Shown here in pieces: positions 11,801-30,669 of a stretch of 31,017 nucleotides of DNA (position 1 is its first letter; each line of letters begins with the position of its first letter). The position numbers and the translations under genes were made by a program. The stretch is from a virus, in IMG/VR virus record IMGVR_UViG_3300047562_002170, positions 1 through 31,017 of that record; one strand, given 5' to 3'. The notes beneath the pieces were generated by a model, which was not told the DNA's origin, searched no databases, and saw only the letters and a program-made list of their open reading frames with translations.

Positions 11801-12238
11801 ATGATTGGTGAATATACTGCTACTGTCCTTCAAGACTTTATCGACCGTCGTCAAGAACGTGTCGATGAAGACACTCGCACAGACGTAAATCCTTACTTCC
11901 AATGGGATTCTGAATTTGCTGAATGGCATCAGAGTCTCACTGATCCTTTACAAACAATGTACGAAGGATACGAGTTCGATACAGTACATGAGATGTATCG
12001 TAATCTTGATTATAAGATGTACTCAAAAGAAGGTGTAAAGGTTAGCCCTTACATTCAAAAACAAATTGATGCTGGTAAGATTGATCATTTAGTTGTCTGG
12101 AAATGGACAGACGGCTATAAACAATTGTACTTAAATCAAGAAGTTAAGTATACTATACTTGGTGTTGTGCCAGCTAAAGAAGCTGCAGCCAAACTAGTGA
12201 ATGGCCGTTTTAAATTTGAAGAGGTTTCCCATGTCTAA
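11801..12238 (+). CDS. Hypothetical 145-residue protein
   Basis: It starts MIGEYTATVLQDFIDRR and contains many aromatic and acidic residues, with no motif I can name. ATG 11801 is preferred over the in-frame TTG 11795, which lies over the upstream stop. The gene end overlaps the next start by 8 nt. Spacing and coding pattern support a real gene; function is unknown. Confidence 0.65.
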   Translation: MIGEYTATVLQDFIDRRQERVDEDTRTDVNPYFQWDSEFAEWHQSLTDPLQTMYEGYEFDTVHEMYRNLDYKMYSKEGVKVSPYIQKQIDAGKIDHLVVWKWTDGYKQLYLNQEVKYTILGVVPAKEAAAKLVNGRFKFEEVSHV

Positions 12239-12632
12239 TGAACGTGAATCAGTAAAAGTCCTGCAAGAGTGTATTGATCTGCAGATCCGTAAGTCACAGG
12301 ACTATCAGAATCCTAACTCGAATGTGAAGCAGGCGATGCATTATCGTCGTGGTGTCGACTCGATCCACGACACTATGCATGGCAAGATGCTTCGTGCTCA
12401 GAGTCTTCTTGAGTCTGGTGAGACTGCCAACTTCGAGTCACTTGAAGATACCTATAAAGATCTGATCAACTACGCAAGCTTTGCCGTCTCGTATATTCGT
12501 GGCAAGATGGAAGGTCAGAATCCTGATCTTGATTATCTTAATCGTCCTATTCAAGATTCTGAGTTTCCGTATGTAGGACGGTCTAGCACTGCGTATGATG
12601 ATCAGTTTGCGGAGGATGAGTCAAATGGCTAA
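12231..12632 (+). CDS. Nmad1 (DUF1599)-like nucleotide-modification-associated protein
   Basis: This 133-residue protein starts at ATG 12231, 5 nt after a GAGG ribosome site. The pattern KSQDYQNPNSNV, MHYRRGVDSIHDTMHGKMLRA, then ANFESLEDTYKDLINYASF resembles the Nmad1/DUF1599 family, which computational surveys have associated with nucleotide or DNA base modification in phages. No biochemical role is firmly known to me. Its position just upstream of dCMP hydroxymethylase fits that association. The family call is by eye and should be checked with a profile search. Confidence 0.55.
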   Translation: MSNERESVKVLQECIDLQIRKSQDYQNPNSNVKQAMHYRRGVDSIHDTMHGKMLRAQSLLESGETANFESLEDTYKDLINYASFAVSYIRGKMEGQNPDLDYLNRPIQDSEFPYVGRSSTAYDDQFAEDESNG

Positions 12633-12936
12633 GTGGAAATACTCATATAAGAATCAAGAATTTGGCATTTTTCCAAAGGGCACTAAGGTAAAGACTTTTA
12701 GTGGTGGTTCTACTACTAAGAATCAAATCCAATGCGGCCAATGGACTCTCCGTGCAAGCGTTTCTGATTACATTCCAAACGGAAAGAAACATGCTCAAAG
12801 AACGATTAAGTCTGGTAAGAATCCTGATGAATTGTATGATCTCATGATCAAGATCATTGATTGTCTATCTCCCGACGAGATCGGCAAAGTTAATCCTATT
12901 ATGAATGCAAAGAAGGTGGTAAATGCTAAAGGTTGA
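12625..12936 (+). CDS. Hypothetical 103-residue protein
   Basis: It begins MAKWKYSYKNQEFGIFPKG. ATG 12625 is 9 nt from GGAGG; the in-frame ATG 12616 is only one base from that site. The N-terminal half looks beta-rich, the C-terminal half helical (DELYDLMIKIIDCLSPDEIG). It overlaps the genes on both sides by 8 and 14 nt, so it is part of the gp42 operon. I do not recognise the family. Confidence 0.65.
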   Translation: MAKWKYSYKNQEFGIFPKGTKVKTFSGGSTTKNQIQCGQWTLRASVSDYIPNGKKHAQRTIKSGKNPDELYDLMIKIIDCLSPDEIGKVNPIMNAKKVVNAKG

Positions 12937-13570
12937 AGATATTCGTCAGCATTTTATTGATGAGTTGACGGCTGGCAACTTTGTCACAGACAAGACTGGT
13001 GTCAAGACCATTGAGATGATTGGTGCTACATTTGAAGCTGATGAACCTACTATTTTTGGCAAAGTCAACCAGGACTATGTTGAGCGTGAACTAAAGTGGT
13101 ATAAGTCAAAGTCTCTGAGTGTCTATGACATTCCTGCTCCAGTTCCTGAAATCTGGAAGCAGGTAGCTGATGAAAATGGCTATATTAATTCCAACTATGG
13201 TTGGTGTATTTGGTCTGAAGATAATTATGGACAGTATTGGAAGGTTCTAAACGAATTACGCGAGAATCCAAACAGCCGTCGCGCGGTTATGATTTATACT
13301 CGTCCTACTATGTGGTATGATTATAACTTCCTTGGCAAGTCAGACTTCATGTGTACTAATGCTGTACAGTATATGATTCGTGATGATGAACTTGTTGCTG
13401 TAGTTCAGATGCGTTCGAACGATGTAGTCTTTGGTTATCGTAATGACTTTGCATGGCAAGATCATGTTGTAAAGCTTCTTGCAGCTGCTCTTGGTATTCC
13501 TCAGACTAAAGTTATTTGGCATGTCGGCAATCTTCATGTTTATGAACGACACTTTAATATGGTGAAATAA
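12923..13570 (+). CDS. 42: dCMP hydroxymethylase gp42
   Basis: This enzyme adds a hydroxymethyl group from methylene-tetrahydrofolate to dCMP, the first step toward hydroxymethylcytosine DNA. It is a thymidylate synthase relative. The sequence tracks T4 gp42 closely: VDKTGVKTIE-like start (22-31), GYINSNYGWCIWSEDNY (86-102), NSRRAVMIYTRP, DFMCTNAVQY with catalytic Cys144, and MRSNDVVFGYRNDFAWQ (163-179). It is 215 residues against about 246 in T4 and ends soon after HVYERHF, so about 25 C-terminal residues are missing. All core catalytic blocks remain. The close match argues against an ordinary thymidylate synthase. Confidence 0.92.
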   Translation: MLKVEDIRQHFIDELTAGNFVTDKTGVKTIEMIGATFEADEPTIFGKVNQDYVERELKWYKSKSLSVYDIPAPVPEIWKQVADENGYINSNYGWCIWSEDNYGQYWKVLNELRENPNSRRAVMIYTRPTMWYDYNFLGKSDFMCTNAVQYMIRDDELVAVVQMRSNDVVFGYRNDFAWQDHVVKLLAAALGIPQTKVIWHVGNLHVYERHFNMVK

Positions 13571-14751
13571 TGGAACCAACTCAATATTATGACGAGTATC
13601 TTCGATACTTTGATTTGGCTCTTAGCCAACAAAAAAAATGTAATGTTTCAGAAGGCGTGCCTTATGGTATGATCTCTCATATTGAATCCAATATGGGAGA
13701 TGACTTACTTGAAAATGTTGAGTTATATGATGTTGTGGAACGCAAATTTGCAGGGTTTTCTCAAATTGTAAATGATATCTTTTATGGATGGACGGATAAG
13801 CATCCGTACTGGAAGAAGATGGAAGCCGGTAAAGTTACTCGTCAACGTGAACAAGTTGCTAAAGACTGGACAGGCAAGCATTCTGACTTTAGTCTTCCAG
13901 AATGGTTATATATATTCATACTACATCGTGTAACTGGTTCTGCTATTAATTACGCACAAAAACCGTCTGGATATTATAATACTATTTTATTTCATTTGCA
14001 TCAGTGTAAAAATATTGAAGAGATGGTTGGTCTACTCAATAACTATCCATATTCATTTTATACGTCAGTCGGTTATCAATTCCCTGCATTTCCAAAAGTT
14101 CCTGCCGATAAACCTTATAAAAAAGGTGGTGACTATTATCTTTCAGAATATGCGCCGCGCCTTGCAAGAGATTTAGCTGAGTGGCTTGAAAGCAGTAATG
14201 CTAAAAGAGATCTTCGTGAAATCGGCGATTGGATGTTAGCATGGAATGTTAAAAATGGGCTTCGTCAATATAAGTTTCAGTATGCTGCAGTTGTAGCAGA
14301 TATTGCAGATTGGTATCCACAATATGTAAATCTACAAAGTCCATTTTATTATGGAACAAATGCTGTCGAATGTATTTCTTATCTTGGTATTAATACACAA
14401 AGATTAAAAAAAGAAAAGTTTCTTGATACAGTAATGGAACGGATTTATGCCGATACTGGATCTTATCCTTATAATGCAGAAGATGTGTGTTGTGATTTTA
14501 TTCGCTGGGTTGAAAACTATGTAAAGCCAGGACCTGATTACAATCATCTAGATTTTGATAATGTCTGGTCATCTTGTAAAATCAAGGACCATCCTTATGG
14601 CAGACAAAAAGCCATGTTAGATCTTGGTCTTGTAGAGACATTTAACGGCATGACAAATCATCCATCCGATGATACGATTTTGAAAAAAGCAGGAATGTCT
14701 GTTGCAGAATACAAGGCAAAAGTAAATGGCACACAACAAGCATATCATTGA
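13570..14751 (+). CDS. Uncharacterised 393-residue protein of the putative DNA-modification cluster
   Basis: No family is certain. The protein is mainly helical, with many Trp and Tyr: VNDIFYGWTDKHPYWKKM (about 68-85), FILHRVTGSAINYAQKPSGYY, and a C-terminal DVCCDFIRWVENYVK. This helical layout recalls the helix-hairpin-helix-type phage enzymes linked to thymine hypermodification (the helical domain beside hydroxymethyluracil DNA kinase and the putrescinyl-thymine enzymes), but I cannot show a diagnostic motif. It starts in the last base of gp42 and overlaps the PLP-like gene by 26 nt, so it almost certainly acts in the same pathway. Confidence 0.6.
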   Translation: MEPTQYYDEYLRYFDLALSQQKKCNVSEGVPYGMISHIESNMGDDLLENVELYDVVERKFAGFSQIVNDIFYGWTDKHPYWKKMEAGKVTRQREQVAKDWTGKHSDFSLPEWLYIFILHRVTGSAINYAQKPSGYYNTILFHLHQCKNIEEMVGLLNNYPYSFYTSVGYQFPAFPKVPADKPYKKGGDYYLSEYAPRLARDLAEWLESSNAKRDLREIGDWMLAWNVKNGLRQYKFQYAAVVADIADWYPQYVNLQSPFYYGTNAVECISYLGINTQRLKKEKFLDTVMERIYADTGSYPYNAEDVCCDFIRWVENYVKPGPDYNHLDFDNVWSSCKIKDHPYGRQKAMLDLGLVETFNGMTNHPSDDTILKKAGMSVAEYKAKVNGTQQAYH

Positions 14752-15628
14752 TGGTATTAATAAGGATGTAGGCATTTATGGGTGGGAAGGCGCCAAGGAC
14801 TACTATCTTAAACTTGCAGAAACATGGATCGATCCTTATCCAGATCCCGTAGTTACAGTTCATGATGGTGTTCGTTGCGTTCGAGATGACTTGATTACTG
14901 GAACTAAGGTTCGTGGTGGTGATTGTCTTCTATCAAGAATTAATCAATCAACCATCGTATATGTTCAGCCTCGTACTGGTTTAGCTGGTGTCTCTATTCT
15001 TGATGTTGCTAAACGCTATGACAAGAAGGTAAAGCTGTTTATGCCTTCTTCTCAACGTATTTCACACCATCAGGCATGTTGTATCGAACGTGGTGCCGAG
15101 GCATCTTTTCACCGTATTGCCGCTATGCCAAATCTAAATAAAATTGCCAAGGATTGGGCAGATTCACAGGATGATGCATTCTTCGTTCCATTAGGATTAA
15201 AACACGAACTCGTTACGGCTGGTATTGTTAAAGCTGCATCAAAGATTGAAGAACCAGATGAAGTTTACGTTGCTATCTCAACTGGTGTTCTTTCAAGAGC
15301 AATGCAAATTGCATGGCCGAATGCTAAGTTTCATTCAATTGCAGTTTCTCGTAATCTAAAAGCAGGTGAACTTGGCCGCGCTGAAGTTATCTCCGAACCA
15401 TTAGCTTTTACTCAAAGCGAGAAGTCTGAAAATCTTCCACCATTCCCGTGCATTGATACGTATGATGGTAAAGTGTGGAAATATATTCCAAAGAATACCG
15501 GCAAAAACATTTTATTTTGGAATGTTGGAAAAGAACCTGTGCTTAACGATCCTACGATTTATGATCGCGTAGATAGTTACCGCGATTGGCCAAAAAATGA
15601 TGTACAATATAATGTACTTGATGTATAA
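14726..15628 (+). CDS. PLP-dependent enzyme, fold type II-like
   Basis: The 300-residue protein resembles the cysteine synthase/ACC deaminase fold. DDLITGTKVRGGD holds a candidate PLP lysine, Lys61. PRTGLAGVSILDVAKRY and VKLFMPSSQRISHHQACCIERGA look like the substrate loop and first Rossmann half. ISTGVLSRAM could be the phosphate-binding loop. PLP enzymes act in some phage base-hypermodification pathways, so a role in adding or processing an amino-acid-derived group is plausible, though not shown. ATG 14726 overlaps the upstream gene by 26 nt. A non-catalytic relative is possible. Confidence 0.6.
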   Translation: MAHNKHIIDGINKDVGIYGWEGAKDYYLKLAETWIDPYPDPVVTVHDGVRCVRDDLITGTKVRGGDCLLSRINQSTIVYVQPRTGLAGVSILDVAKRYDKKVKLFMPSSQRISHHQACCIERGAEASFHRIAAMPNLNKIAKDWADSQDDAFFVPLGLKHELVTAGIVKAASKIEEPDEVYVAISTGVLSRAMQIAWPNAKFHSIAVSRNLKAGELGRAEVISEPLAFTQSEKSENLPPFPCIDTYDGKVWKYIPKNTGKNILFWNVGKEPVLNDPTIYDRVDSYRDWPKNDVQYNVLDV

Positions 15629-15637
15629 AGGAATATT

Positions 15638-16675
15638 ATGAGTATTTTAATTACATCGCCTTTTACCCACATATCACCTAATATTCATTCTCACCGAGCA
15701 GCACAAGCTGCAATTTATGCAGAACAGATTAGCGTTGAATATGGTGGAGAAGTCCATCTAGATAAAACTGGTGATATTCACGATAATATCAATGACTTTG
15801 ATGAGGTCTATGTTTATCATGGGAACGATTGGGGTGGATCTCTTAACTTATTTGGCGGAATGAAGAACTATGGTGGCATTGATAATCTCATCCGCTATTC
15901 ACAGTTTAAAGGAAAAGTAAATTCTCTTTGGATCGACCATCCTAAATATTCTGAAATGCTTGAAAAAAGAATGAATGATGATGTACATCCTGATTGGCAT
16001 AAAGTTGATTGGGAAAATCTAAAGCGCATTGAAAACACTGCTAAAACTGTTCGTGAAATCGAATGCGTGAATAGGGCAGTTGCTGGCGATAGTCATGCTA
16101 TCTGCATGTACCGTCCTGGTTGGTTCGTCAATTCTGTCCCATTCAAGACTCTTCATGGGGCATTGAAAGAAGGACTGAATACCTTTATCCAGCCATATCA
16201 TAAGATCGTAGAATTCTACTTTGGCAATATTGACGTTCGTCATCACTTGATGCGTCAACCGAATCCTGAAGAAGCAACACGGGATTTAGCAAATAGATAT
16301 CATACGCAATTAAATGCACTCGATGTGGAATCAGTATCCGCATATGAATTACTTCCCATTGAAAACGAATCTCGTGCTCTCCCAAAAACAGGTTATTATA
16401 AAGATACACCGTTTTATGGATCTTGGCAAGAACGCGAAAATACACGTCTTATATTCAAAGATGAAATGTTAAAGCTTTGCTCAACAAGTAAAGTCAACTT
16501 TATTGAATGGGTTGACTATATGATAAACGAGCGCGGCGAATTAGATTTTGAATTTATGGAAAAACCTAAGTCTGTCCACTTATCTCGTGCGGCTTATCCA
16601 CATTGGCAAGGTAAAAAGTGGAGCGAAAAAAGATTTACTGGAAATACACTAGAGGATTTTTTTACACATGATTGA
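15638..16675 (+). CDS. Possible SGNH-like hydrolase or transferase
   Basis: The 345-residue protein has a possible SGNH arrangement in its second half: GDSH (150-153) for block I, YFGNIDVRHH (194-203) resembling block III, and HLSRAAYPHW (314-323) for the His block. The first 140 residues are different and include DEVYVYHGNDWGG. If real, it could be an esterase, or an acyltransferase working with the PLP and glycosyltransferase genes. Alternatively it is an unrelated phage family. AAAGGA precedes ATG 15638 by 5 nt. Its end overlaps the next gene by 8 nt. Confidence 0.5.
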   Translation: MSILITSPFTHISPNIHSHRAAQAAIYAEQISVEYGGEVHLDKTGDIHDNINDFDEVYVYHGNDWGGSLNLFGGMKNYGGIDNLIRYSQFKGKVNSLWIDHPKYSEMLEKRMNDDVHPDWHKVDWENLKRIENTAKTVREIECVNRAVAGDSHAICMYRPGWFVNSVPFKTLHGALKEGLNTFIQPYHKIVEFYFGNIDVRHHLMRQPNPEEATRDLANRYHTQLNALDVESVSAYELLPIENESRALPKTGYYKDTPFYGSWQERENTRLIFKDEMLKLCSTSKVNFIEWVDYMINERGELDFEFMEKPKSVHLSRAAYPHWQGKKWSEKRFTGNTLEDFFTHD

Positions 16676-16979
16676 TGATGATTTTTACCAATTGAAACCA
16701 GATATCTCGTATAAATATAATGAAGGCAATCTCATGAAAGAGATTCAAGCCTACGTAAATGCTACATACGATCAGCATTATTCTCAAAACAAATATCAGG
16801 CAACCGAGTTTATCATCGATGGTGGACACGGTGAGGGTTTCTGTATTGGTAATATTCTTAAATATGCCCAAAGATACCGAAATAAAGGCGCGCCAGAAGA
16901 TTGGCGAAAAGATCTGATGAAAGTTATTCACTACGCAATTATAGCACTACACGTGCACGATCTAGAAAACAAGGACTAG
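16668..16979 (+). CDS. DUF3310-like small protein
   Basis: The 103-residue protein has an FCIGNILKYAQRYRNKG segment followed by EDWRKDLMKVIHYAIIALH, resembling the DUF3310 pattern (glycine-Asn-x-x-Lys-Tyr, then a helix). T7 gp1.7, a nucleoside monophosphate kinase, belongs to that family. A role in nucleotide metabolism would suit its place between hydroxymethylase-linked genes and a glycosyltransferase, but the family varies and kinase activity is not established in general. Confidence 0.5.
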   Translation: MIDDDFYQLKPDISYKYNEGNLMKEIQAYVNATYDQHYSQNKYQATEFIIDGGHGEGFCIGNILKYAQRYRNKGAPEDWRKDLMKVIHYAIIALHVHDLENKD

Positions 16980-16981
16980 TT

Positions 16982-17959
16982 ATGGCTATTAATATTGAAG
17001 TACCAATTGAAGAACTAAAAAAGCGTAAGCTGTTTGTTGCTGTGCCAATGTATGGTGGTCAGTGTGCTGGTATGTTTACACGATCTGTTGCAGATTTGTC
17101 TGCGCTATGTACACATTACGGAGTACAAGTACGGTTTTACTTTTTGTTCAACGAATCACTTGTAACACGAGCTCGTAACTATTGTGCAGATGAGTTTATG
17201 CGCTCTGGTGATACCCATCTTATGTTTATTGACTCGGATATCGGATTTAATCCAAACGATGTGATTGCACTGCTTGCGCTTCAAAATCCAGATCACACAC
17301 AAGATAATTATGATATTATTGCTGGGCCTTATCCAAAGAAGTGTATTGCTTGGGAAAAGATCAAACTTGCAGTTGATCGTGGATTTGCTGACGAACAACC
17401 TAGTGAACTTGAAAAATATGTTGGTGATTATGTTTTTAATCCAACTGGAGAAACAAAAGAAATTCGTCTAGATGAGCCTGTAGAAGTTCTTGAAGCTGGA
17501 ACTGGATTTATGATGATCCGTCGTAATACGTTCGAGCGATTTATGGAAGAATATCCTCAGCAATCCTATAAGCCTGATCATGTACGCACTGAAGCTTTTG
17601 ACGGTTCACGCGAGATTTTTGCTTTCTTTGATACTCCTATTGATCACAAACGTACGAATATGAATGCAGAATTAAAGAAGTATCTTGAGGATAATCCAGA
17701 GGCTTCACATGATGAAATCCTGCAGTTTGTAACCGATCCTAACAATGGCGTCGTAAAAGACTATTCAAAGAGATATCTTTCTGAAGATTATATGTTCTGT
17801 CAGTGGATTCGCCATATTGGACTCAAAGTTTGGTTGTGTCCATGGATGGAACTAAAGCATGTTGGATCGTATATCTTTGGTGGTACACTCAACGATCTTG
17901 CAAAGGTTGGAGCTGCAGCTACGGCAGATCCTTCGGCACTTAAAAAGCCTAAAAAATAG
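16982..17959 (+). CDS. GT-A type glycosyltransferase
   Basis: The 325-residue protein begins KLFVAVPMYGGQCAGMFTRS, then VTRARNYCADEF and a DxD metal/nucleotide-sugar motif at Asp84-Ser-Asp86 (LMFIDSDIGF). GPYPKK and GTGFMMIRR follow. This matches Anp1-like family 2-type glycosyltransferases common in phages. Near dCMP hydroxymethylase, a sugar transfer to hydroxymethylcytosine is attractive, as in T4 and RB69, but the fold differs from T4's GT-B glucosyltransferases. Transfer to proteins or lipopolysaccharide is also possible. ATG 16982 lies 2 nt after the upstream stop and no Shine-Dalgarno is obvious. Confidence 0.75.
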   Translation: MAINIEVPIEELKKRKLFVAVPMYGGQCAGMFTRSVADLSALCTHYGVQVRFYFLFNESLVTRARNYCADEFMRSGDTHLMFIDSDIGFNPNDVIALLALQNPDHTQDNYDIIAGPYPKKCIAWEKIKLAVDRGFADEQPSELEKYVGDYVFNPTGETKEIRLDEPVEVLEAGTGFMMIRRNTFERFMEEYPQQSYKPDHVRTEAFDGSREIFAFFDTPIDHKRTNMNAELKKYLEDNPEASHDEILQFVTDPNNGVVKDYSKRYLSEDYMFCQWIRHIGLKVWLCPWMELKHVGSYIFGGTLNDLAKVGAAATADPSALKKPKK

Positions 17960-23821: not shown

Positions 23822-25054
23822 ATGGGCGAGAAGCGCAATTACAATCTAGTCGATACGATGAAAAAACTGCAGGGTTCGTGGTTTGTTGAGCATACTAGAG
23901 CAAAACGAGGGGCTGCTGATCTAAGGGATCTACTCACCCGTGAAAAACCTGTTCGTACATTCGGAGCGTACAATGGTCAACAAGCGGTTCAGCATGTAAA
24001 GGCTGGATTAGAAGCAATCTATGTTTCCGGTTGGCAGGTAGCGGCCGCCCACAATTCAACACAACAAACATATCCCGATCAGAGTCTCTATGCTGTTGAC
24101 TCTGTGCCTAATGCGGTTCGCTCAATCCAGAATGCTTTCCGTAGGCAAGATCAGATTCAAGTTGTGGAAGGGATGTCACATAAAGATCCTGATTATCGGT
24201 TCTGGGGTAATGTCCCTATCATTGCTGATGCTGAAGCAGGTTTTGGTGGGGCGTTGAATGCTTATGAGCTTACTCGTAGTTTGATTGAGGCAGGTGCTGC
24301 TGCAGTACACTTCGAAGATCAATTGGCAGCAGAAAAGAAATGTGGCCATCTTGGTGGTAAGGTCCTCATTCCGACTTCACAAGCAATTCGTAACCTCAAT
24401 GCAGCACGACTCGCTTCAGACGTAGAGCGTACCAATACCGTAATCATTGCTCGTACCGATGCTGAAGCTGCAAGACTATTGCTGTCAGATGTTGATGATG
24501 TCGATAAGAAGTTTCTCACTGGTAAGAGGACCGAAGAAGGTTTCTATGAAATTACTGGTGGTTTGGAAATGGGCTGTGAGCGTGGTCAAGCATTTGCTGA
24601 ATACGCCGACCTAGTCTGGTGTGAAACATCTAAGCCATGCCTCAAGGAAGCCAAGCGATTTGCCGATGCAGTTCGTGGTGCCGTTCCAGACCAACTACTA
24701 GCATACAACTGCTCACCTTCGTTCAATTGGAGACAGCATCTTCCGTCAGATACAGAGCTTGCAGAGTTTCAAACAGAGCTTGGTAAGATGGGATACAAGT
24801 TCCAGTTTATCACTCTTGCTGGATTCCATTCAACAAACTATGCGGTGTTTGATTTTGCTAAACAGTATGCCCAGGATGGTATGCTTGCATATTCTAGATT
24901 GCAAGAAAAAGAGTTTGCAGCTCTTAGCGAAGGATTCACATCAGTTAAGCACCAGCGTGAAGTTGGGGTCGGATACTTCGATGCAATTTCTCAGGCTGTA
25001 GGAGCTAGTTCGGTTGCTGCTCTAAAAGATTCTACAGAATCTGAACAATTCTAA
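23822..25054 (+). CDS. aceA: Isocitrate lyase
   Basis: Isocitrate lyase splits isocitrate into glyoxylate and succinate, the entry of the glyoxylate shunt. The 410-residue protein (E. coli AceA: 434) keeps the conserved blocks: YVSGWQVAAAHN, IIADAEAGFGG (metal site), the catalytic KKCGHLGGK with Cys174, IIARTDAEAA, LVWCETSKP, NCSPSFNW, and a C-terminal ESEQF like AceA's. No truncation or frameshift is visible, so activity is expected. GGAAG precedes ATG 23822. It is a clear auxiliary metabolic gene in phage DNA. Methylisocitrate lyase is less likely given the AceA-like motifs. A strong terminator follows. Confidence 0.95.
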   Translation: MGEKRNYNLVDTMKKLQGSWFVEHTRAKRGAADLRDLLTREKPVRTFGAYNGQQAVQHVKAGLEAIYVSGWQVAAAHNSTQQTYPDQSLYAVDSVPNAVRSIQNAFRRQDQIQVVEGMSHKDPDYRFWGNVPIIADAEAGFGGALNAYELTRSLIEAGAAAVHFEDQLAAEKKCGHLGGKVLIPTSQAIRNLNAARLASDVERTNTVIIARTDAEAARLLLSDVDDVDKKFLTGKRTEEGFYEITGGLEMGCERGQAFAEYADLVWCETSKPCLKEAKRFADAVRGAVPDQLLAYNCSPSFNWRQHLPSDTELAEFQTELGKMGYKFQFITLAGFHSTNYAVFDFAKQYAQDGMLAYSRLQEKEFAALSEGFTSVKHQREVGVGYFDAISQAVGASSVAALKDSTESEQF

Positions 25055-25654: not shown

Positions 25655-25790
25655 AATGAAGTTAGAGCTGCTGAAGATCTTCACTTTTGAATTCGATTTA
25701 GACACATATAAAGGTAAGAACGATGAAGAGACTATTGATAGTGATTCCGCTGATCCTGGCGACACCAGCGATGGCTCAGTACAATCGTGA
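25644..25790 (+). CDS. Possible 48-residue overlapping small protein
   Basis: An open frame with AAGGAAG upstream runs MKIRMKLELLKIFTFEFDLD and then an acidic Asp/Ser-rich tail. It overlaps the preceding gene by 11 nt and the start of csgF by 68 nt. It could be a real coupled mini-gene or a leader that feeds ribosomes into csgF. Low certainty. Confidence 0.3.
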   Translation: MKIRMKLELLKIFTFEFDLDTYKGKNDEETIDSDSADPGDTSDGSVQS

Positions 25791-26163
25791 TTTTCAGTTT
25801 AAGAACCCATCGTTCAGTGGACAGAATGCTTCTGCCCATTGGTTGACGATTGAGAACCAGGAGTTTACACGTAAGCAGGAAATTAGAGAGAAGATCGAGG
25901 AACAACTTGAGGAAGCTGCAAGAGAAGAGAAGAATTCCTTTCTCAATAGATTCCTTAACAACCTACAATCAAGAATCTATTCAAGGCTTGCTGCCCAGTT
26001 AACGGACAATTTGTTTTCACAAGAAGGGCAAAGTGGGTCATTTGAGTTAGAAGGAAATACTATATCATATGCTGAAGATGGTGACGAACTTGTATTGACG
26101 ATCGTACAGGCCGATGGCTCTGTCACTGAGATCAGAATACCGTTATCAGGATTCAGTTTTTAA
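25723..26163 (+). CDS. csgF: Curli assembly factor CsgF
   Basis: CsgF binds the CsgG pore and anchors curli subunits at the cell surface. The 146-residue protein has a signal peptide cut after ATPAMA (18 residues), and the mature N-terminus QYNRDFQFKNPSFSGQN matches the CsgF segment (FQFRNPNFGGN in E. coli) that inserts into CsgG. A charged helical middle (65-85) and a beta-strand end follow, as in CsgF. Length is close to E. coli CsgF (138). It starts inside a short overlapping frame, and csgG begins at its stop codon. Confidence 0.9.
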   Translation: MKRLLIVIPLILATPAMAQYNRDFQFKNPSFSGQNASAHWLTIENQEFTRKQEIREKIEEQLEEAAREEKNSFLNRFLNNLQSRIYSRLAAQLTDNLFSQEGQSGSFELEGNTISYAEDGDELVLTIVQADGSVTEIRIPLSGFSF

Positions 26164-26948
26164 TGAAACATTTTATTTTGTTATTGACTATATTATTAGG
26201 AGGATGTACAATTGGCGTAGCAGGGTCAAAACAATGGCATACACCCGATGCTCCAAGACTAGTTACACCATCCGATGTAACAGGTTTGATTTCATTACAA
26301 CCACCATATAGAAGACCGGTCGTTGCTGTATATGAATTTCCCGATCTAACGGGACAAAGAAATGAAGGCGGAGCTACTTCGAGTCTATCAACAGCAGTAA
26401 CTCAAGGCGGGACTGCTATTCTGATAGATGCTCTAAAGAATGCAGGTGGTGGCACGTGGTTTACGGTCGTAGAAAGAAATAGAATTGATAATCTTGCTAA
26501 GGAAAGGCAGATTGTCAGACAACAAAGAGATGAGTACGAAGGAGATAATGCTACAAAACTTCAACCGATGCTTTTCGCTGGGCTAATAGTTGAAGGTGGT
26601 ATCGTAGGCTACGATACGAGTTTAATGACAGGAGGTGCTGGTGCTAGGTATCTCGGAATTGGCGGTACTCATCAATATAAGAAAGACCAAGTTATAGTTT
26701 CGTTAAGAGCAGTTTCGACAAATACAGGAGAAGTTATTCTTAACGTTCAAATATCGAAGACGATTTATTCTTATGGAAATGATCTTTCGGTATTTAAGTT
26801 TGTTGATGCTGGCACAGACCTAGTGGAATTTGAAACTGGTATGACAGAAAACGAAGCAAACACAATGGCAGTAAAGATGGCGATAGAGGCTGCAGTCGTG
26901 GAAATGATTAAGCAAGGAATAGAAAGGGATATTTGGAGGTACAAATGA
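26163..26948 (+). CDS. csgG: Curli secretion channel lipoprotein CsgG
   Basis: CsgG is the nine-subunit outer-membrane pore that exports curli subunits (type VIII secretion). The 261-residue protein (E. coli: 277) has a lipoprotein signal with lipobox LGGC, Cys15. Family blocks follow: VVAVYEFPDLTGQ, STAVTQGGTAILIDAL, WFTVVERNRIDNLAKERQI, VEGGIVGYDTSLMTGGAGA, and YLGIGG in the pore-forming region. The end IKQGIERDIWRYK matches the CsgG C-terminal helix. It starts at the csgF stop (TAATG) and ends overlapping the curlin-like gene (ATGA). Confidence 0.95.
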   Translation: MKHFILLLTILLGGCTIGVAGSKQWHTPDAPRLVTPSDVTGLISLQPPYRRPVVAVYEFPDLTGQRNEGGATSSLSTAVTQGGTAILIDALKNAGGGTWFTVVERNRIDNLAKERQIVRQQRDEYEGDNATKLQPMLFAGLIVEGGIVGYDTSLMTGGAGARYLGIGGTHQYKKDQVIVSLRAVSTNTGEVILNVQISKTIYSYGNDLSVFKFVDAGTDLVEFETGMTENEANTMAVKMAIEAAVVEMIKQGIERDIWRYK

Positions 26949-27640
26949 AACTAATCAAGAATTTCTTGGTTATGCTTACATTATTGATTCCAGCGATTGC
27001 ATATGGACAGTCAACAACAAACTCGATCTACATTGAGCAGATCGGCGATGGTTCAACGATAACTATCGAACAAACGGGGAACACTAATACGATCGGTGAT
27101 ACCGTTTTGGATATTCCATTTGATCTTAATGGGGCATCACAAAACATTACGGTAACTCAAGATGGCAACTCTAACTCACTTGATGGAGCGATTAAAGGAG
27201 CAAACATTACTGCTAGCATCGACACAACAGGTGATACAAACGATCTTGATTTCGATGTCGGGGCAACTGCGGCCAGTGGATCAACACTTGACTTTGATGT
27301 AATAGGCAGTGGCAACGATGTCGACTTTACGCAAGGATCGTTAAACTCTGCTACCAATGCTGATGTCACTGTTGGTATCACTGGTGACTTTAACACGTTT
27401 GATTCCACCATCGAAACAGATGATGTTACAAATACATTTGCTGTTACCGGCGATTCAAATGACATGACTATTGTTCAAGATGGTTATGCTGGTAAGAACA
27501 TTGATATGGATCTTACTGGATCAACAAATACCGTAACAGTTAATCAGAAGAGCACGTTGAATGTTGATTCAATTAATCTCACGTCTACGACGAGCAACAG
27601 TACTATTAGCATTAATCAGTGCGACTCCACTGGTTGCTAA
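26945..27640 (+). CDS. Curlin-repeat (CsgA/CsgB-like) secreted protein
   Basis: The 231-residue protein has a signal peptide (ending IAYGQS) and then about eight imperfect repeats of roughly 22-26 residues. Each has alternating Ile/Val/Leu strands and a Gly-[Asp/Ser/Asn]-x-Asn turn, for example ITIEQTGNTNTI, ITVTQDGNSNSL and VTVNQKST. The Gln and Asn ladder of curlin is best kept in the first and last repeats; middle repeats use Asp instead. A Cys pair ends the protein (NQCDSTGC). GGAGG supports ATG 26945; the TTG 26933 upstream is not used. Beside csgG it should be the exported fibre or a cap. Confidence 0.82.
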   Translation: MKLIKNFLVMLTLLIPAIAYGQSTTNSIYIEQIGDGSTITIEQTGNTNTIGDTVLDIPFDLNGASQNITVTQDGNSNSLDGAIKGANITASIDTTGDTNDLDFDVGATAASGSTLDFDVIGSGNDVDFTQGSLNSATNADVTVGITGDFNTFDSTIETDDVTNTFAVTGDSNDMTIVQDGYAGKNIDMDLTGSTNTVTVNQKSTLNVDSINLTSTTSNSTISINQCDSTGC

Positions 27641-28634
27641 TGATATTGGTTCGGTAACGCAATCAAAGGGGACTGGCGAAGTAGTTCGTAATCAAACGAA
27701 GTACAACGTCAGGCCCCAGTTACCTATTCGTCAAAACGATACAGTAAAGACGGGCAATGGTCGTGTCAGGATTACGTTTGTCGACGATTCAACTGTTAAT
27801 GTTACCGAACAGTCTCGTTTAGTTATCGATGACTTTGTTTACAATGGTAACCCATCTGCATCGAGGATGGCACTTCGGTTCGCATCCGGGACCGCTAGAT
27901 TTACATCTGGTTCAGGAAGAATTGCCAAACCGAACATAGCTCTCAGAACACCTTCTGCAACAATTGCCGTTCGTGGAACAGACTTTACAACGACAGTCGA
28001 TGAGTTCGGTAAGAGCCTAATTATTCTACTACCATCTGATGATGGAACGGTCGGAGAGATCACGGTTTCTAACGCAGCAGGAATTGTTGTCCTCAATCAA
28101 GCATTTCAAGCAACTCTTGTCGAGACGTTTGATTCTCGACCATCGCAACCTCTAATACTCAATCTTTCATTGGATATGATCGATAACATGATCATTGTTA
28201 ATCCACCTGAAGAAATAAAAGAGTATGAAATAGCAGATTCAAGAACTAATATTCTTGATCTCTCAGAACTCGATATAGATTACCTAGAATTTAAGGATCT
28301 TGAAAAAGATGATCTAATCTTTGATCAATTGGATAAGGATCTATTGAGTGTAAACTTCTTGGAAGACTATCTTGATGATGGTGGCGGTGATTTGTCCGAT
28401 TCAGTAGATGGGGTGTCGATTGTAGGAACGACTTTTGGTTATAATGAAAGTACGCAGATCTATGCAATCATTGCACAGGATTCTATAAATATCTCAAGGT
28501 ATGTTGGTGGCACAATAAGCATTAACTTGTCTAAAGATGAAGGAAAGAATATCCTTCTTAATCAAAATAAAATTATATACGATTTAAAGGTAAATGGCGG
28601 TGGATCAGAAATTATCATCACGCAATCTGACTAA
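27561..28634 (+). CDS. Secreted FecR-domain protein
   Basis: The 357-residue protein begins with a signal peptide (RRATVLLALISATPLVA) that is encoded in the last 80 nt of the curlin gene, in another frame. No later in-frame start would keep the signal. A FecR-type domain spans about 40-175: VKTGNGRVRITFVDDSTVNV, then LRTPSATIAVRGTDFTTTV. An acidic linker follows, and a C-terminal beta-rich tail (IYDLKVNGGGSEIIITQSD) slightly recalls a curlin strand. FecR proteins sense or scaffold in the periplasm. Here it may link the exported fibre to the cyclase encoded next, overlapping by 41 nt. Confidence 0.85.
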   Translation: MLIQLISRLRRATVLLALISATPLVANDIGSVTQSKGTGEVVRNQTKYNVRPQLPIRQNDTVKTGNGRVRITFVDDSTVNVTEQSRLVIDDFVYNGNPSASRMALRFASGTARFTSGSGRIAKPNIALRTPSATIAVRGTDFTTTVDEFGKSLIILLPSDDGTVGEITVSNAAGIVVLNQAFQATLVETFDSRPSQPLILNLSLDMIDNMIIVNPPEEIKEYEIADSRTNILDLSELDIDYLEFKDLEKDDLIFDQLDKDLLSVNFLEDYLDDGGGDLSDSVDGVSIVGTTFGYNESTQIYAIIAQDSINISRYVGGTISINLSKDEGKNILLNQNKIIYDLKVNGGGSEIIITQSD

Positions 28635-30669
28635 GATACTCCTATCCCCATGGATGGCATTGCTTACGTTTGCAATTCTATTATCTGTTAAGTTTGCAGA
28701 TCCGTATCTCGTAGAGTCAACAAGGTTAACATCCTATGATTATATTATGCTTGATGAAAAAATTGAAGCTGACGGTATTGTTGTTGCAAATATCGGTGAA
28801 AAGGCAATTGAAAAATACGGCCAATATCCATTTCCGCGAGAAGTATATTCAGAGATCATAAAAGATCTATACGATAATGGTGCATATCTGGTCACATCAA
28901 CTATTATGTTTCCCGAATATGATCGATTCGGTGGTGATGGTGCGCTGGAACAAACTTTATCAGAATATCCTATCGTCCTTAGCCAATCGGTTTTAACCGA
29001 ATGCGGCACTAATCCCAATACAGAAATTCGCCGGACCGGTGTTGCTGTAGTCGGGGATGGTCAGCCGACCGACTTTCTACCAAACTATCCCTGTGTCCTT
29101 GATAACATTCCCATTCTTCAAGAAGCTGCAGTTGGAGTTGGTGTAACATCGACATTGCCGGAGAGTGATGGGGTCGTGAGAAGAGTTCCTCTGTTAGCGA
29201 CTTCAAACGGTGAGTACTATCCTGCATTTGCACTTGAAGTTCTCCGAGTTCTAGCAGGAGATCCTTCATATCAAGCGAAGATAAATCAGTCTGGTGTGGA
29301 AGCATTGCGTATTCCTCAATTTGATACTATAAACACTGATCCTTATGGAAGGATCTTTATTAATCCTAATTATTCATTCAAGACGGTAGAGATAGGAGAT
29401 AATCTTCCAGATCTAACTGGCAGCACTGTGATTCTTGGTGTTTCTGCAACGGGAGTTGTAAACCCAGTTCCAACAGCTTCGGGGGCCCAAACCCCGCATC
29501 AAATTCAGGCCAGTCTACTTCAAACTCTATTTGATGGCAATTCTGCATCGATTCCGCAATGGGTAGATTTATTAGATTTGATTGCTTTTGTGATTCTTTC
29601 TCTGACATTAATAGTTCTTTCCAGGTTTAAATATTCAATAATTTTTATTGGAATAGTTTTTGCTGGCTATTTGTATTTGCCAGTGTATCTATTTGTACAA
29701 AATAATATTCTTTTTGATGTTAGTTTTAATTTACTAGCTGGACTATTAATCTACCTTCATATTTATACCGCTAAATATATCTCTGAATATTTACAGAAAC
29801 AGCAGATCAAGAAACAGTTTGGAACGTATCTGTCTCCTGCTATGGTCGAGAAGCTGCAGAAGAATCCTGAACTGTTAAAGCTAGGTGGTGAGTCGCGTGA
29901 GCTGTCGATCATGTTTACAGACGTGCGGGGATTCACAACGATCTCCGAACACTACGGCGAAGACGTTCAAGGTCTGACTAAGATAATGAATCGTTACATG
30001 ACAGCTATGACAAAAACAATTATTGAAAACGAAGGAACTATAGATAAGTATATAGGCGACGCGCAGATGGCGTTTTGGAATGCACCGTTGAATGACCAAC
30101 ATCATGCTTTACATTCAGTACAAACGGGGTTAACAATGCTAAAAGACTTGGAGACATTTAATGAAGAGATTGCAAGAGAAGGTATACCTGCTTTTGGCAT
30201 GGGTCTTGGTATTAACACTGACACTGTTGTGGTTGGTAACATGGGTTCTGATCAACGTTTCGATTACACTTGTTTGGGGGATGGAGTTAACCTTGCAGCG
30301 CGTCTTGAAGGTCAAACAAAAAGTTATGGCGTCAAAATTATTATCGGGCCTAAGACAGCCGGATATATCAAAGACATTTACCAAGTTATTCAGCTCGACC
30401 TTATAGCTGTTAAAGGTAAAACAAAGCCAGTAAAGATCTATACTGTTGTTGAAAACTGGGATAACATTGGACACACTCAACACAAAAAGTTCCTAGCACT
30501 ATATCGTCAAGGTCACTTTGATGTAGCTAAGAGATATGCAATAGAGTTAAAACAATCATTCCAGGGTCAGCTGTTCGAATACTATACAATGATGATAGAA
30601 CGGATCGACCATCTCAAAATCGAAAAGCCAAAAGATTGGGATGGAGTTTATAGAGCTACATCAAAATAA
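28594..30669 (+). CDS. CHASE2-domain class III adenylate cyclase
   Basis: The 691-residue inner-membrane protein has one N-terminal helix (about 17-35), a large periplasmic CHASE2 sensor (40-320), three helices (about 325-393) and a cytoplasmic cyclase domain (435-610). The cyclase has metal aspartates Asp443 (FTDVRGFT) and Asp489 (YIGDAQMAFW), Lys485 and Thr559 as likely adenine-recognising residues (CyaC type), and Asn566/Arg570 (VNLAARLE) for the transition state. All key residues are present, so it should make cAMP. AAAGG precedes ATG 28594. A guanylate cyclase is less likely because of the Lys/Thr pair. Confidence 0.93.
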   Translation: MAVDQKLSSRNLTKILLSPWMALLTFAILLSVKFADPYLVESTRLTSYDYIMLDEKIEADGIVVANIGEKAIEKYGQYPFPREVYSEIIKDLYDNGAYLVTSTIMFPEYDRFGGDGALEQTLSEYPIVLSQSVLTECGTNPNTEIRRTGVAVVGDGQPTDFLPNYPCVLDNIPILQEAAVGVGVTSTLPESDGVVRRVPLLATSNGEYYPAFALEVLRVLAGDPSYQAKINQSGVEALRIPQFDTINTDPYGRIFINPNYSFKTVEIGDNLPDLTGSTVILGVSATGVVNPVPTASGAQTPHQIQASLLQTLFDGNSASIPQWVDLLDLIAFVILSLTLIVLSRFKYSIIFIGIVFAGYLYLPVYLFVQNNILFDVSFNLLAGLLIYLHIYTAKYISEYLQKQQIKKQFGTYLSPAMVEKLQKNPELLKLGGESRELSIMFTDVRGFTTISEHYGEDVQGLTKIMNRYMTAMTKTIIENEGTIDKYIGDAQMAFWNAPLNDQHHALHSVQTGLTMLKDLETFNEEIAREGIPAFGMGLGINTDTVVVGNMGSDQRFDYTCLGDGVNLAARLEGQTKSYGVKIIIGPKTAGYIKDIYQVIQLDLIAVKGKTKPVKIYTVVENWDNIGHTQHKKFLALYRQGHFDVAKRYAIELKQSFQGQLFEYYTMMIERIDHLKIEKPKDWDGVYRATSK

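Follow-up and report, generated by a model that had tools for sequence, protein, structure and literature searches.

A candidate amino-acid-based cytosine hypermodification module downstream of gp42 in uncultured T4-like phages

How do phages decorate the hydroxymethylated bases of their DNA? In T4 and RB69, the 5-hydroxymethylcytosine (hmC) made by gp42 is tailored after synthesis, by glucosylation or arabinosylation (PMC2993671, PMC8056088), and the Aeromonas phages 44RR, 31 and 25 are listed in one of these sources as having genes 42 and 56 and no known glucosyltransferase (PMC2993671). The Pseudomonas phages M6 and PaMx11 act on 5-hydroxymethyldeoxyuridine (5-hmdU) with an amino-acid:DNA transferase (AADNAT) and a pyridoxal phosphate (PLP) or flavin enzyme. 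To our knowledge, amino-acid-derived DNA bases are known on thymine only, and we found no report of an amino-acid-modified cytosine in the open-licence literature, an earlier mention elsewhere being possible. Here we analyze the IMG/VR virus record IMGVR_UViG_3300047562_002170, a 31-kb, T4-like record from a virus of bacteria (positions 1 to 31,017; hereafter the window, meaning this whole stretch), in which gp42 is followed by three genes: H393, encoding a 393-residue helical protein; a gene for a fold-type II PLP enzyme; and G345, encoding a 345-residue protein with an SGNH fold. A first-pass annotation made from the sequence had proposed a new cytosine hypermodification pathway at this site, and we think it probable on balance that this module turns cytosine into an amino-acid-derived hypermodified base without the usual kinase.

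The locus resembles those of M6 and PaMx11, in that a gene for a putative glycosylase-fold transferase stands beside a fold-type II PLP gene (of the same PHROG as in M6) and near a hydroxymethylase of the thymidylate synthase family. It differs from them in four respects: the hydroxymethylase is of the dCMP type, whereas theirs is of the dUMP type; in loci with an H gene (H393 or its relatives) we found neither the 5-HMUDK kinase/HMUDK_hel pair nor an M6-like radical SAM gene; G345 is added; and H393 falls below detection by the Pfam family ADDT. With T4 and RB69 the window shares gp42-made hmC but has no glucosyltransferase module, whereas other phages carry, at this same site, modules with TAGT or with GT365, which its neighbor genes suggest is a glycosyltransferase although no library names it. 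The Aeromonas phages share gp42, as listed in the source above, and a G345 homologue, which in 44RR is part of one protein with an HMUDK_hel-like domain and in phage avDM4 stands beside a GT365 homologue; tblastn found neither an H393 homologue nor a PLP match in these phages. A cytosine version of the pathway with G345 in the place of the kinase would be new, amino-acid hypermodification of thymine being already known.

Which base would be decorated? Against PDB sequences (phmmer), gp42 of the window matched the T4 dCMP hydroxymethylase 1b49 and its mutants at E 2.8e-85 over residues 2-214, with thymidylate synthases far behind (E 8e-12 at best); in Pfam it scores 75.4 bits for the thymidylate synthase superfamily. 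Its C144 and D175 correspond to C148 and D179 of T4 and are invariant in five aligned homologues. In dCMP hydroxymethylase, an Asp in place of the thymidylate synthase Asn underlies the selection of cytosine. Judged by homology, gp42 is a true dCMP hydroxymethylase, as annotated, and because it matches the T4 enzyme and has kept both its Cys nucleophile and this Asp, hmC should be the base that is decorated.

We next consider how widely the genes after gp42 travel with it. All homologue scans covered the best 80 loci at most, with near relatives over-represented. H393 has 284 relatives in IMG/VR and none among 50,697 phage records. Of 80 H393 loci, 27 extend at least 2.5 kb to the upstream and 4.5 kb to the downstream side (53 were left out); PLP and G345 genes are present in all 27, gp42 in 24, a second helical gene, H330, in 19 and GT365 in none. 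For H354, a second H family about 30% identical to H393 (134 relatives, best 80 kept), 36 of 80 loci had 3 kb on both sides (44 left out); gp42, PLP and G345 occur in 36/36 of these and GT365 or TAGT in 0/36, in at least three gene orders (G345-PLP-H, H-PLP-G345 and H-H330-PLP-G345). Seen from the PLP gene (74 of 80 loci included, 6 left out), G345 is found in 71/71 loci with room downstream, H393 in 41/41 with 2.6 kb upstream (on the upstream side in 38) and gp42 in 26/26 with 5.5 kb upstream. Each of the nine H-bearing records of at least 100 kb has exactly one H match. The four genes gp42, H, PLP and G345 travel together as a quartet, and since this linkage is kept through changes of gene order and deep divergence, it fits the prediction of a shared pathway.

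What occupies the site after gp42 when the quartet does not? Among the 67 of 80 gp42 loci with 2.5 kb downstream (13 with less were left out), 24 carry an H gene, 22 carry GT365 or TAGT, none carries both and 21 carry neither (Fisher P = 5e-6). Dereplication, made for these 67 loci only, left 50, with 19 H, 19 GT, 0 both and 12 neither (P = 9e-6). PLP and G345 accompany H in 22 of the 24 H-carrying loci, and the contigs of the other two end inside the PLP gene; at L112 a TET-associated glycosyltransferase lies at the gp42 site. H and GT modules thus occupy one position in these loci but are never found together, which makes the spot behind gp42 a place where modules for tailoring hmC are exchanged, with the H module as one of the alternatives. 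Other genes stay put. The DUF3310 gene and the GT-A-type glycosyltransferase-like gene, both of which the first-pass annotation had placed in the pathway, are equally common beside either module (GT-A 13/17 and DUF3310 13/17 beside the H module; 16/20 and 14/20, respectively, beside the GT/DNMT module), and Caulobacter phage Cr30 has GT-A between peptide deformylase and gp45 with no gp42 anywhere in its 156-kb genome. We rejected both as pathway parts; because they are backbone genes, the "glycosylated" part of the predicted hydroxymethylcytosine is unsupported, and the genes that comparison of loci ties together are gp42, H393, PLP and G345. The DUF1599/Nmad1 gene likewise lies beside gp42 whichever module follows (15/16 H loci and 19/22 GT loci), as does MazG; its protein probably serves nucleotide-pool housekeeping for hm-dCTP and is not module-specific.

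The alternative modules at this site have features of their own. GT365 is a member of phrog_14998, and C5-cytosine-methylase-like proteins (PF00145) adjoin it (L091:1970-3184, L107:4949-6145 and others), GT and PF00145 occurring together in 20/67 gp42 loci; where a phage makes hmC, such a methylase-like enzyme might act on that base in some new way. At L107:1954-4948, an epimerase and a UDP-galactopyranose mutase surround GT365 at the gp42 site, which suggests a furanose sugar on hmC. A 120-140 aa ORF (open reading frame) resembling the uracil-DNA-glycosylase superfamily (18.5 bits, below cut-off; L024:9598-10014 and many H loci) lies just upstream of H393 or GT365 and is absent from the window, and in one lineage a gene for glycine cleavage H protein (L033:9197-9544; 87.4 bits) stands two genes upstream of H393.

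What kind of protein is H393? It has no matches in Pfam, PHROGs or NCBIfam, and its sequence profiles found no relative among PDB sequences. We built an AF2 model from 31 sequences, those of the window and of other loci (mean pLDDT 73.2, pTM 0.74), and compared it with 283 chains by VIA-align. The top two matches, and the only ones with Z of at least 8, were 8z2n and 8z2m (Z 9.8 and 8.6; 205 residues, the former at 4.0 Å; for helical proteins the tool takes matches as reliable from a Z of about 13 upward, so that 9.8 falls short), both entries of PaMx11 gp46, a 5-phosphomethyl-dU glycinyltransferase and a solved AADNAT. DUF2419 followed (Z 7.4), and then five 8-oxoguanine glycosylase (OGG/AGOG) entries in six ranks (Z 7.2 to 4.2). 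A model that best matches an AADNAT, and after it HhH-GPD glycosylases, agrees with the link that the first-pass annotation drew to helical, glycosylase-like proteins. Among viral models (BFVD), the best matches are proteins of uncultured phages, of which two, a 330-aa protein and another with 68% identity to H393, bear the name "amino acid:DNA transferase domain-containing" (automatic names, not reproduced with Pfam ADDT); the first match in a named phage is the HMUDK_hel protein of PhiW-14, a weak one (E 0.85). H393 is also the most conserved part of the module, with many invariant residues and at least 73% identity in the best 80 of 284 loci. On the strength of its model, H393 probably works like an AADNAT; because Pfam ADDT does not see it, we do not file it as a member of PF18724. 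The second helical gene, H330 (~330 aa), occurs in 52/80 H393 loci, usually between H393 and PLP, and is missing from the window. Pfam holds nothing informative for it, and PHROGs nothing for two H330 members; the H393 family and H330 align collinearly over 125 columns in hhalign (E 0.016, probability 3%), and the two are plausibly paralogues.

The PLP gene links the module to the thymidine-hypermodified phage M6. The window protein matches phrog_7093, "threonine dehydratase," at 133.7 bits (L037, 234.5; M6 gp52, 530.3; Bordetella CN2, 521.2), and a profile alignment with M6 gp52 (hhalign) extends over 221 columns at E 1.7e-8. Pfam PALP matches the window protein weakly (15.5 bits; cut-off 35), as do PDB sequences when searched with its profile; the assignment to fold type II comes from PALP matches over the cut-off in phage relatives. 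K61, the candidate catalytic Lys near the N-terminus, and S185-T186-G187, the Ser/Thr-Gly phosphate loop expected of fold type II, are invariant in 26 sequences, and the Lys is also kept in M6 and CN2. By these comparisons the enzyme is a fold type II relative of M6 gp52, which upholds the annotated fold. Members of the family recur in the company of DNA modification enzymes: the M6 and CN2 genes both adjoin an AADNAT recognized by Pfam ADDT, the homologue in Erythrobacter phage R6L shares one protein with an N6/N4 DNA methylase (L084:6792-9212, both parts over Pfam cut-offs) and that in Microcystis phage Mae-JY30 follows a methylase gene. In M6, gp52 presumably reshapes the attached amino acid, e.g., by decarboxylation; work by Lee in 2022 reportedly concerns PLP decarboxylases and amino acids on hmdU.

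G345 is an addition relative to the M6 and PaMx11 systems. A sequence profile search gave a chance-level match only. In its AF2 model (pLDDT 87, pTM 0.82), residues 140-324 adopt an SGNH fold (Z up to 12.8 over 164-167 residues at 2.8-3.3 Å; Foldseek E 6.7e-6), in line with the SGNH-like call of the annotation, and the block I Ser, within G150-D151-S152-H153, and the block V His, H314, are invariant. The gene also occurs outside the H module. In Aeromonas phage 44RR, whose genome has gp42, the homologue forms the first ~332 residues of a 795-aa protein (L082:6001-8388), the rest of which matches HMUDK_hel at E 9e-4, below cut-off; this gene adjoins a putative sodium-dependent galactose transporter. 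Two other loci (L208:2513-6310 and L200:4247-8040) have, downstream of gp42, myo-inositol-1-phosphate synthase, an ORF without assignment, a stand-alone HMUDK_hel (34.5 and 44.6 bits; cut-off 25) and directly after it G345. As an observation on that cassette in itself, an inositol-related hmC modification is possible there. Because G345 is fused to or beside HMUDK_hel, a domain that in PaMx11 is paired with a P-loop kinase (gp49/gp50), G345 may replace the kinase.

How might the four proteins work together? Gene content, homologies, linkage and the replacement pattern are directly supported, and from them we infer each chemical step. gp42, as its close homology indicates, would produce hm-dCMP, which would enter DNA as hmC. 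From its fold and context, H393 would be a base-flipping, HhH-GPD-like enzyme that acts on hmC in DNA and joins a free amino acid to its 5-CH2 group, in the manner of AADNATs on 5-phosphomethyl-dU. The PLP enzyme may then reshape the attached amino acid, e.g., by decarboxylation, like its M6 relative, whose role we take to be of this kind. G345 would act at the same position: we lean slightly toward activation of the hmC hydroxyl in place of a 5-HMU-type kinase, with acyl transfer onto the product almost as likely. The acylated product of the first-pass annotation draws on a single feature, the SGNH fold of G345, while its amino-acid-derived hydroxymethylcytosine is favored by the H393 model, the M6-type PLP enzyme and the linkage of the quartet.

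Several observations weigh against this reading. Besides the modest Z score of the H393 model, Foldseek of that model against PDB gave no match at E < 2, and Pfam ADDT (PF18724) finds 0/7 H-bearing records even at E 10, with 5/5 known hypermodified phages detected as controls. In hhalign, the profiles of H393 and of AADNATs align poorly (E 0.077 in one comparison and 0.009 in another, with probability <5%): at E 0.009 (probability 4%) only the C-terminal N-x-[EQ]-[DE]-V helix aligned, a motif seen by eye in both alignments, and a first, too uniform H393 alignment failed to match, broader ones improving only slightly. gp42 is missing from the piece in 3/27 H393 loci; among records whose piece had no gp42, L075 and L078 carry it elsewhere. 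SGNH enzymes have characteristic motifs with an Asn in block III and an Asp in block V. G345 lacks both, with G-[NS]-I-D replacing G-x-N-D and K or another residue three positions before the His, and so we leave it outside the canonical SGNH hydrolases. Finally, G345 is found without its supposed partners: three loci (L200, L208 and L209) carry it without H393, PTm1 has its SGNH half without gp42, and in avDM4, an Aeromonas phage with gp42 and no HMUDK_hel in its record, the gene before it is a homologue of GT365 (E 3e-41 at 29% identity), not an AADNAT, which argues against a G345 limited to activating hmC for AADNAT.

That breadth of contexts lends some weight to the strongest rival reading, a decoration of hmC with something other than an amino acid, in which G345 is the key transferase and modifies the hydroxyl with an acyl or different group, H393 is a mere DNA-binding partner and the PLP enzyme makes the donor (e.g., an unusual amino or keto acid). 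No other tailoring gene is indeed shared as widely as G345 (with H and PLP, with HMUDK_hel and myo-inositol-1-phosphate synthase, with GT365 in avDM4 and in the 44RR fusion), and SGNH enzymes are in general acyl hydrolases or transferases. We nevertheless consider this unlikely: the strong conservation and many invariant residues of H393 are unlike a passive binder, and the PLP relatives in M6 and CN2 adjoin a real AADNAT.

Could the product be a simple glycosylated base, with G345 a divergent β-glucosyltransferase (BGT), GT-A adding sugars and H393 and PLP unrelated? The N-terminal half of G345 does recall T4 BGT, matching 1qkj at rank 9 in Foldseek (E 2.3e-4, a weak fit at 14 Å rmsd), and G345 matches PF09198 at E 0.019, below the cut-off. 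The conserved residues, however, gather in the SGNH half (GDSH, GxIDxR, PxExxxR, ME and SxH), the Asp that would correspond, by eye, to the BGT base is not invariant (D in 33/38 sequences, P in 4, N in 1), and Cr30 has GT-A but lacks gp42, so that we hold simple glycosylation to be quite improbable.

It seems more improbable still that thymine or hmU is the true target and gp42 is present by chance. The characterized AADNATs, as far as is known, all act on hmU derivatives, but gp42 keeps the dCMP hydroxymethylase Asp, is found in 9/9 H-bearing records of at least 100 kb and is followed by an H module that takes the place of the hmC glycosyltransferase modules found there in other phages. Least credible is a role in host metabolism takeover or DNA repair, without DNA modification: the H393 model resembles DNA glycosylases and metabolism has many PLP fold II enzymes, but the tight linkage to gp42 in several gene orders, the replacement by GT modules and the fusion of the PLP homologue to a DNA methylase in R6L all speak against it.

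If an amino acid is attached to hmC, how would the hydroxymethyl group be activated? HMUDK_hel (PF18723) was found in 0/10 H-bearing records, which are possibly incomplete, and is present in M6, PaMx11, L208 and L200. No M6-type radical SAM gene or kinase was found in the flanks covered at H loci, and the kinase family AAA_33 is over the cut-off in only 3/9 H-bearing records of at least 100 kb, so it is not a shared component. The hmU routes pass through a phosphorylated base (as described in PMC6449724), and no kinase is common to the H-bearing records; a host kinase or an undetected kinase family possibly supplies the activation. More tentatively, and with some doubt, we propose a kinase-free route spread through uncultured T4-like phages, in which G345 (SGNH/BGT-like) would activate the hydroxymethyl group, the AADNAT-like protein would install an amino acid on hmC and the PLP enzyme would trim it to give, e.g., an aminoalkyl cytosine. 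We know of no organism with such a base class.

Is the locus itself sound? The overlapping gene series that the first-pass annotation described around gp42 is present on the plus strand, all seven ORFs lying at or very near where it had placed them, with small overlaps (Table 1); the start of the PLP ORF overlaps the end of the H393 ORF by 26 nt. Reading frames are under purifying selection relative to L015 (pN/pS 0.136/0.859 for the 393-aa gene, 0.074/0.655 for PLP and 0.166/0.773 for the 345-aa gene). Because a separate, independent contig, L002, holds the same cassette with 88-100% identity per gene, the cassette is not an assembly artefact, and a scan of genome contigs found six loci, all on contigs that come from metagenome-type bins and whose genes look phage-like. 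The core gene order of the window is prohead protease, gp23, gp19, UvsW, gp55, gp47, gp46, peptide deformylase, MazG, Nmad1, gp42, the module, DUF3310, GT-A, gp45, gp44, gp62 and RegA; gp42, Nmad1, DUF3310 and the module genes were searched against databases, and most other names were assigned by sequence inspection. Promoter and terminator scans scored close to shuffle level and were not used.

Table 1. Genes of the gp42 region in the window
Feature	Position	Strand	Basis or remark
DUF1599/Nmad1 protein, MazG-like	12201..12632	+	PF07659, 29.9 bits (cut-off 25)
103-aa ORF between Nmad1 and gp42	12625..12936	+	Relatives in few loci
gp42, dCMP hydroxymethylase, makes 5-hydroxymethyl-dCMP	12923..13570	+	E 2.8e-85 to T4 enzyme 1b49; C144, D175 kept
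H393, 393 aa, predicted glycosylase fold, amino-acid:DNA-transferase-like	13570..14751	+	AF2 model, VIA-align, name of top BFVD match
Fold-type II PLP enzyme, M6 gp52 relative	14726..15628	+	phrog_7093, 133.7 bits; K61 candidate catalytic Lys
G345, 345 aa, SGNH-fold enzyme, N-terminal half resembling T4 β-glucosyltransferase	15638..16675	+	AF2 model; S152, H314 invariant
DUF3310 protein, backbone gene	16668..16979	+	Pfam, 37.2 bits
GT-A-type glycosyltransferase-like protein, backbone gene	16979..17959	+	phrog_1574

Farther along, the window holds an isocitrate lyase gene (23822-25054; 315 bits), an unusual metabolic gene for a phage, and a curli (type VIII secretion) set at 25723-30669, with CsgF (61.8 bits), CsgG (174.4 bits), a curlin repeat (24.6 bits), FecR and a CHASE2-guanylate cyclase, all over Pfam cut-offs. 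CsgG relatives occur in 17 viral contigs, and the curli region may be a chimeric join or a host piece.

What would an amino-acid-derived hmC mean for these phages? If the proposed pathway is true, the transferase logic would be portable between pyrimidines, enzymes for adding amines to the hmC of DNA would become available, and the DNA protection of many uncultured T4-like phages would be explained. The G345 homologues of 44RR, 31 and 25 are candidates for the missing tailoring enzyme of gene-42 phages listed without a known glucosyltransferase (PMC2993671).

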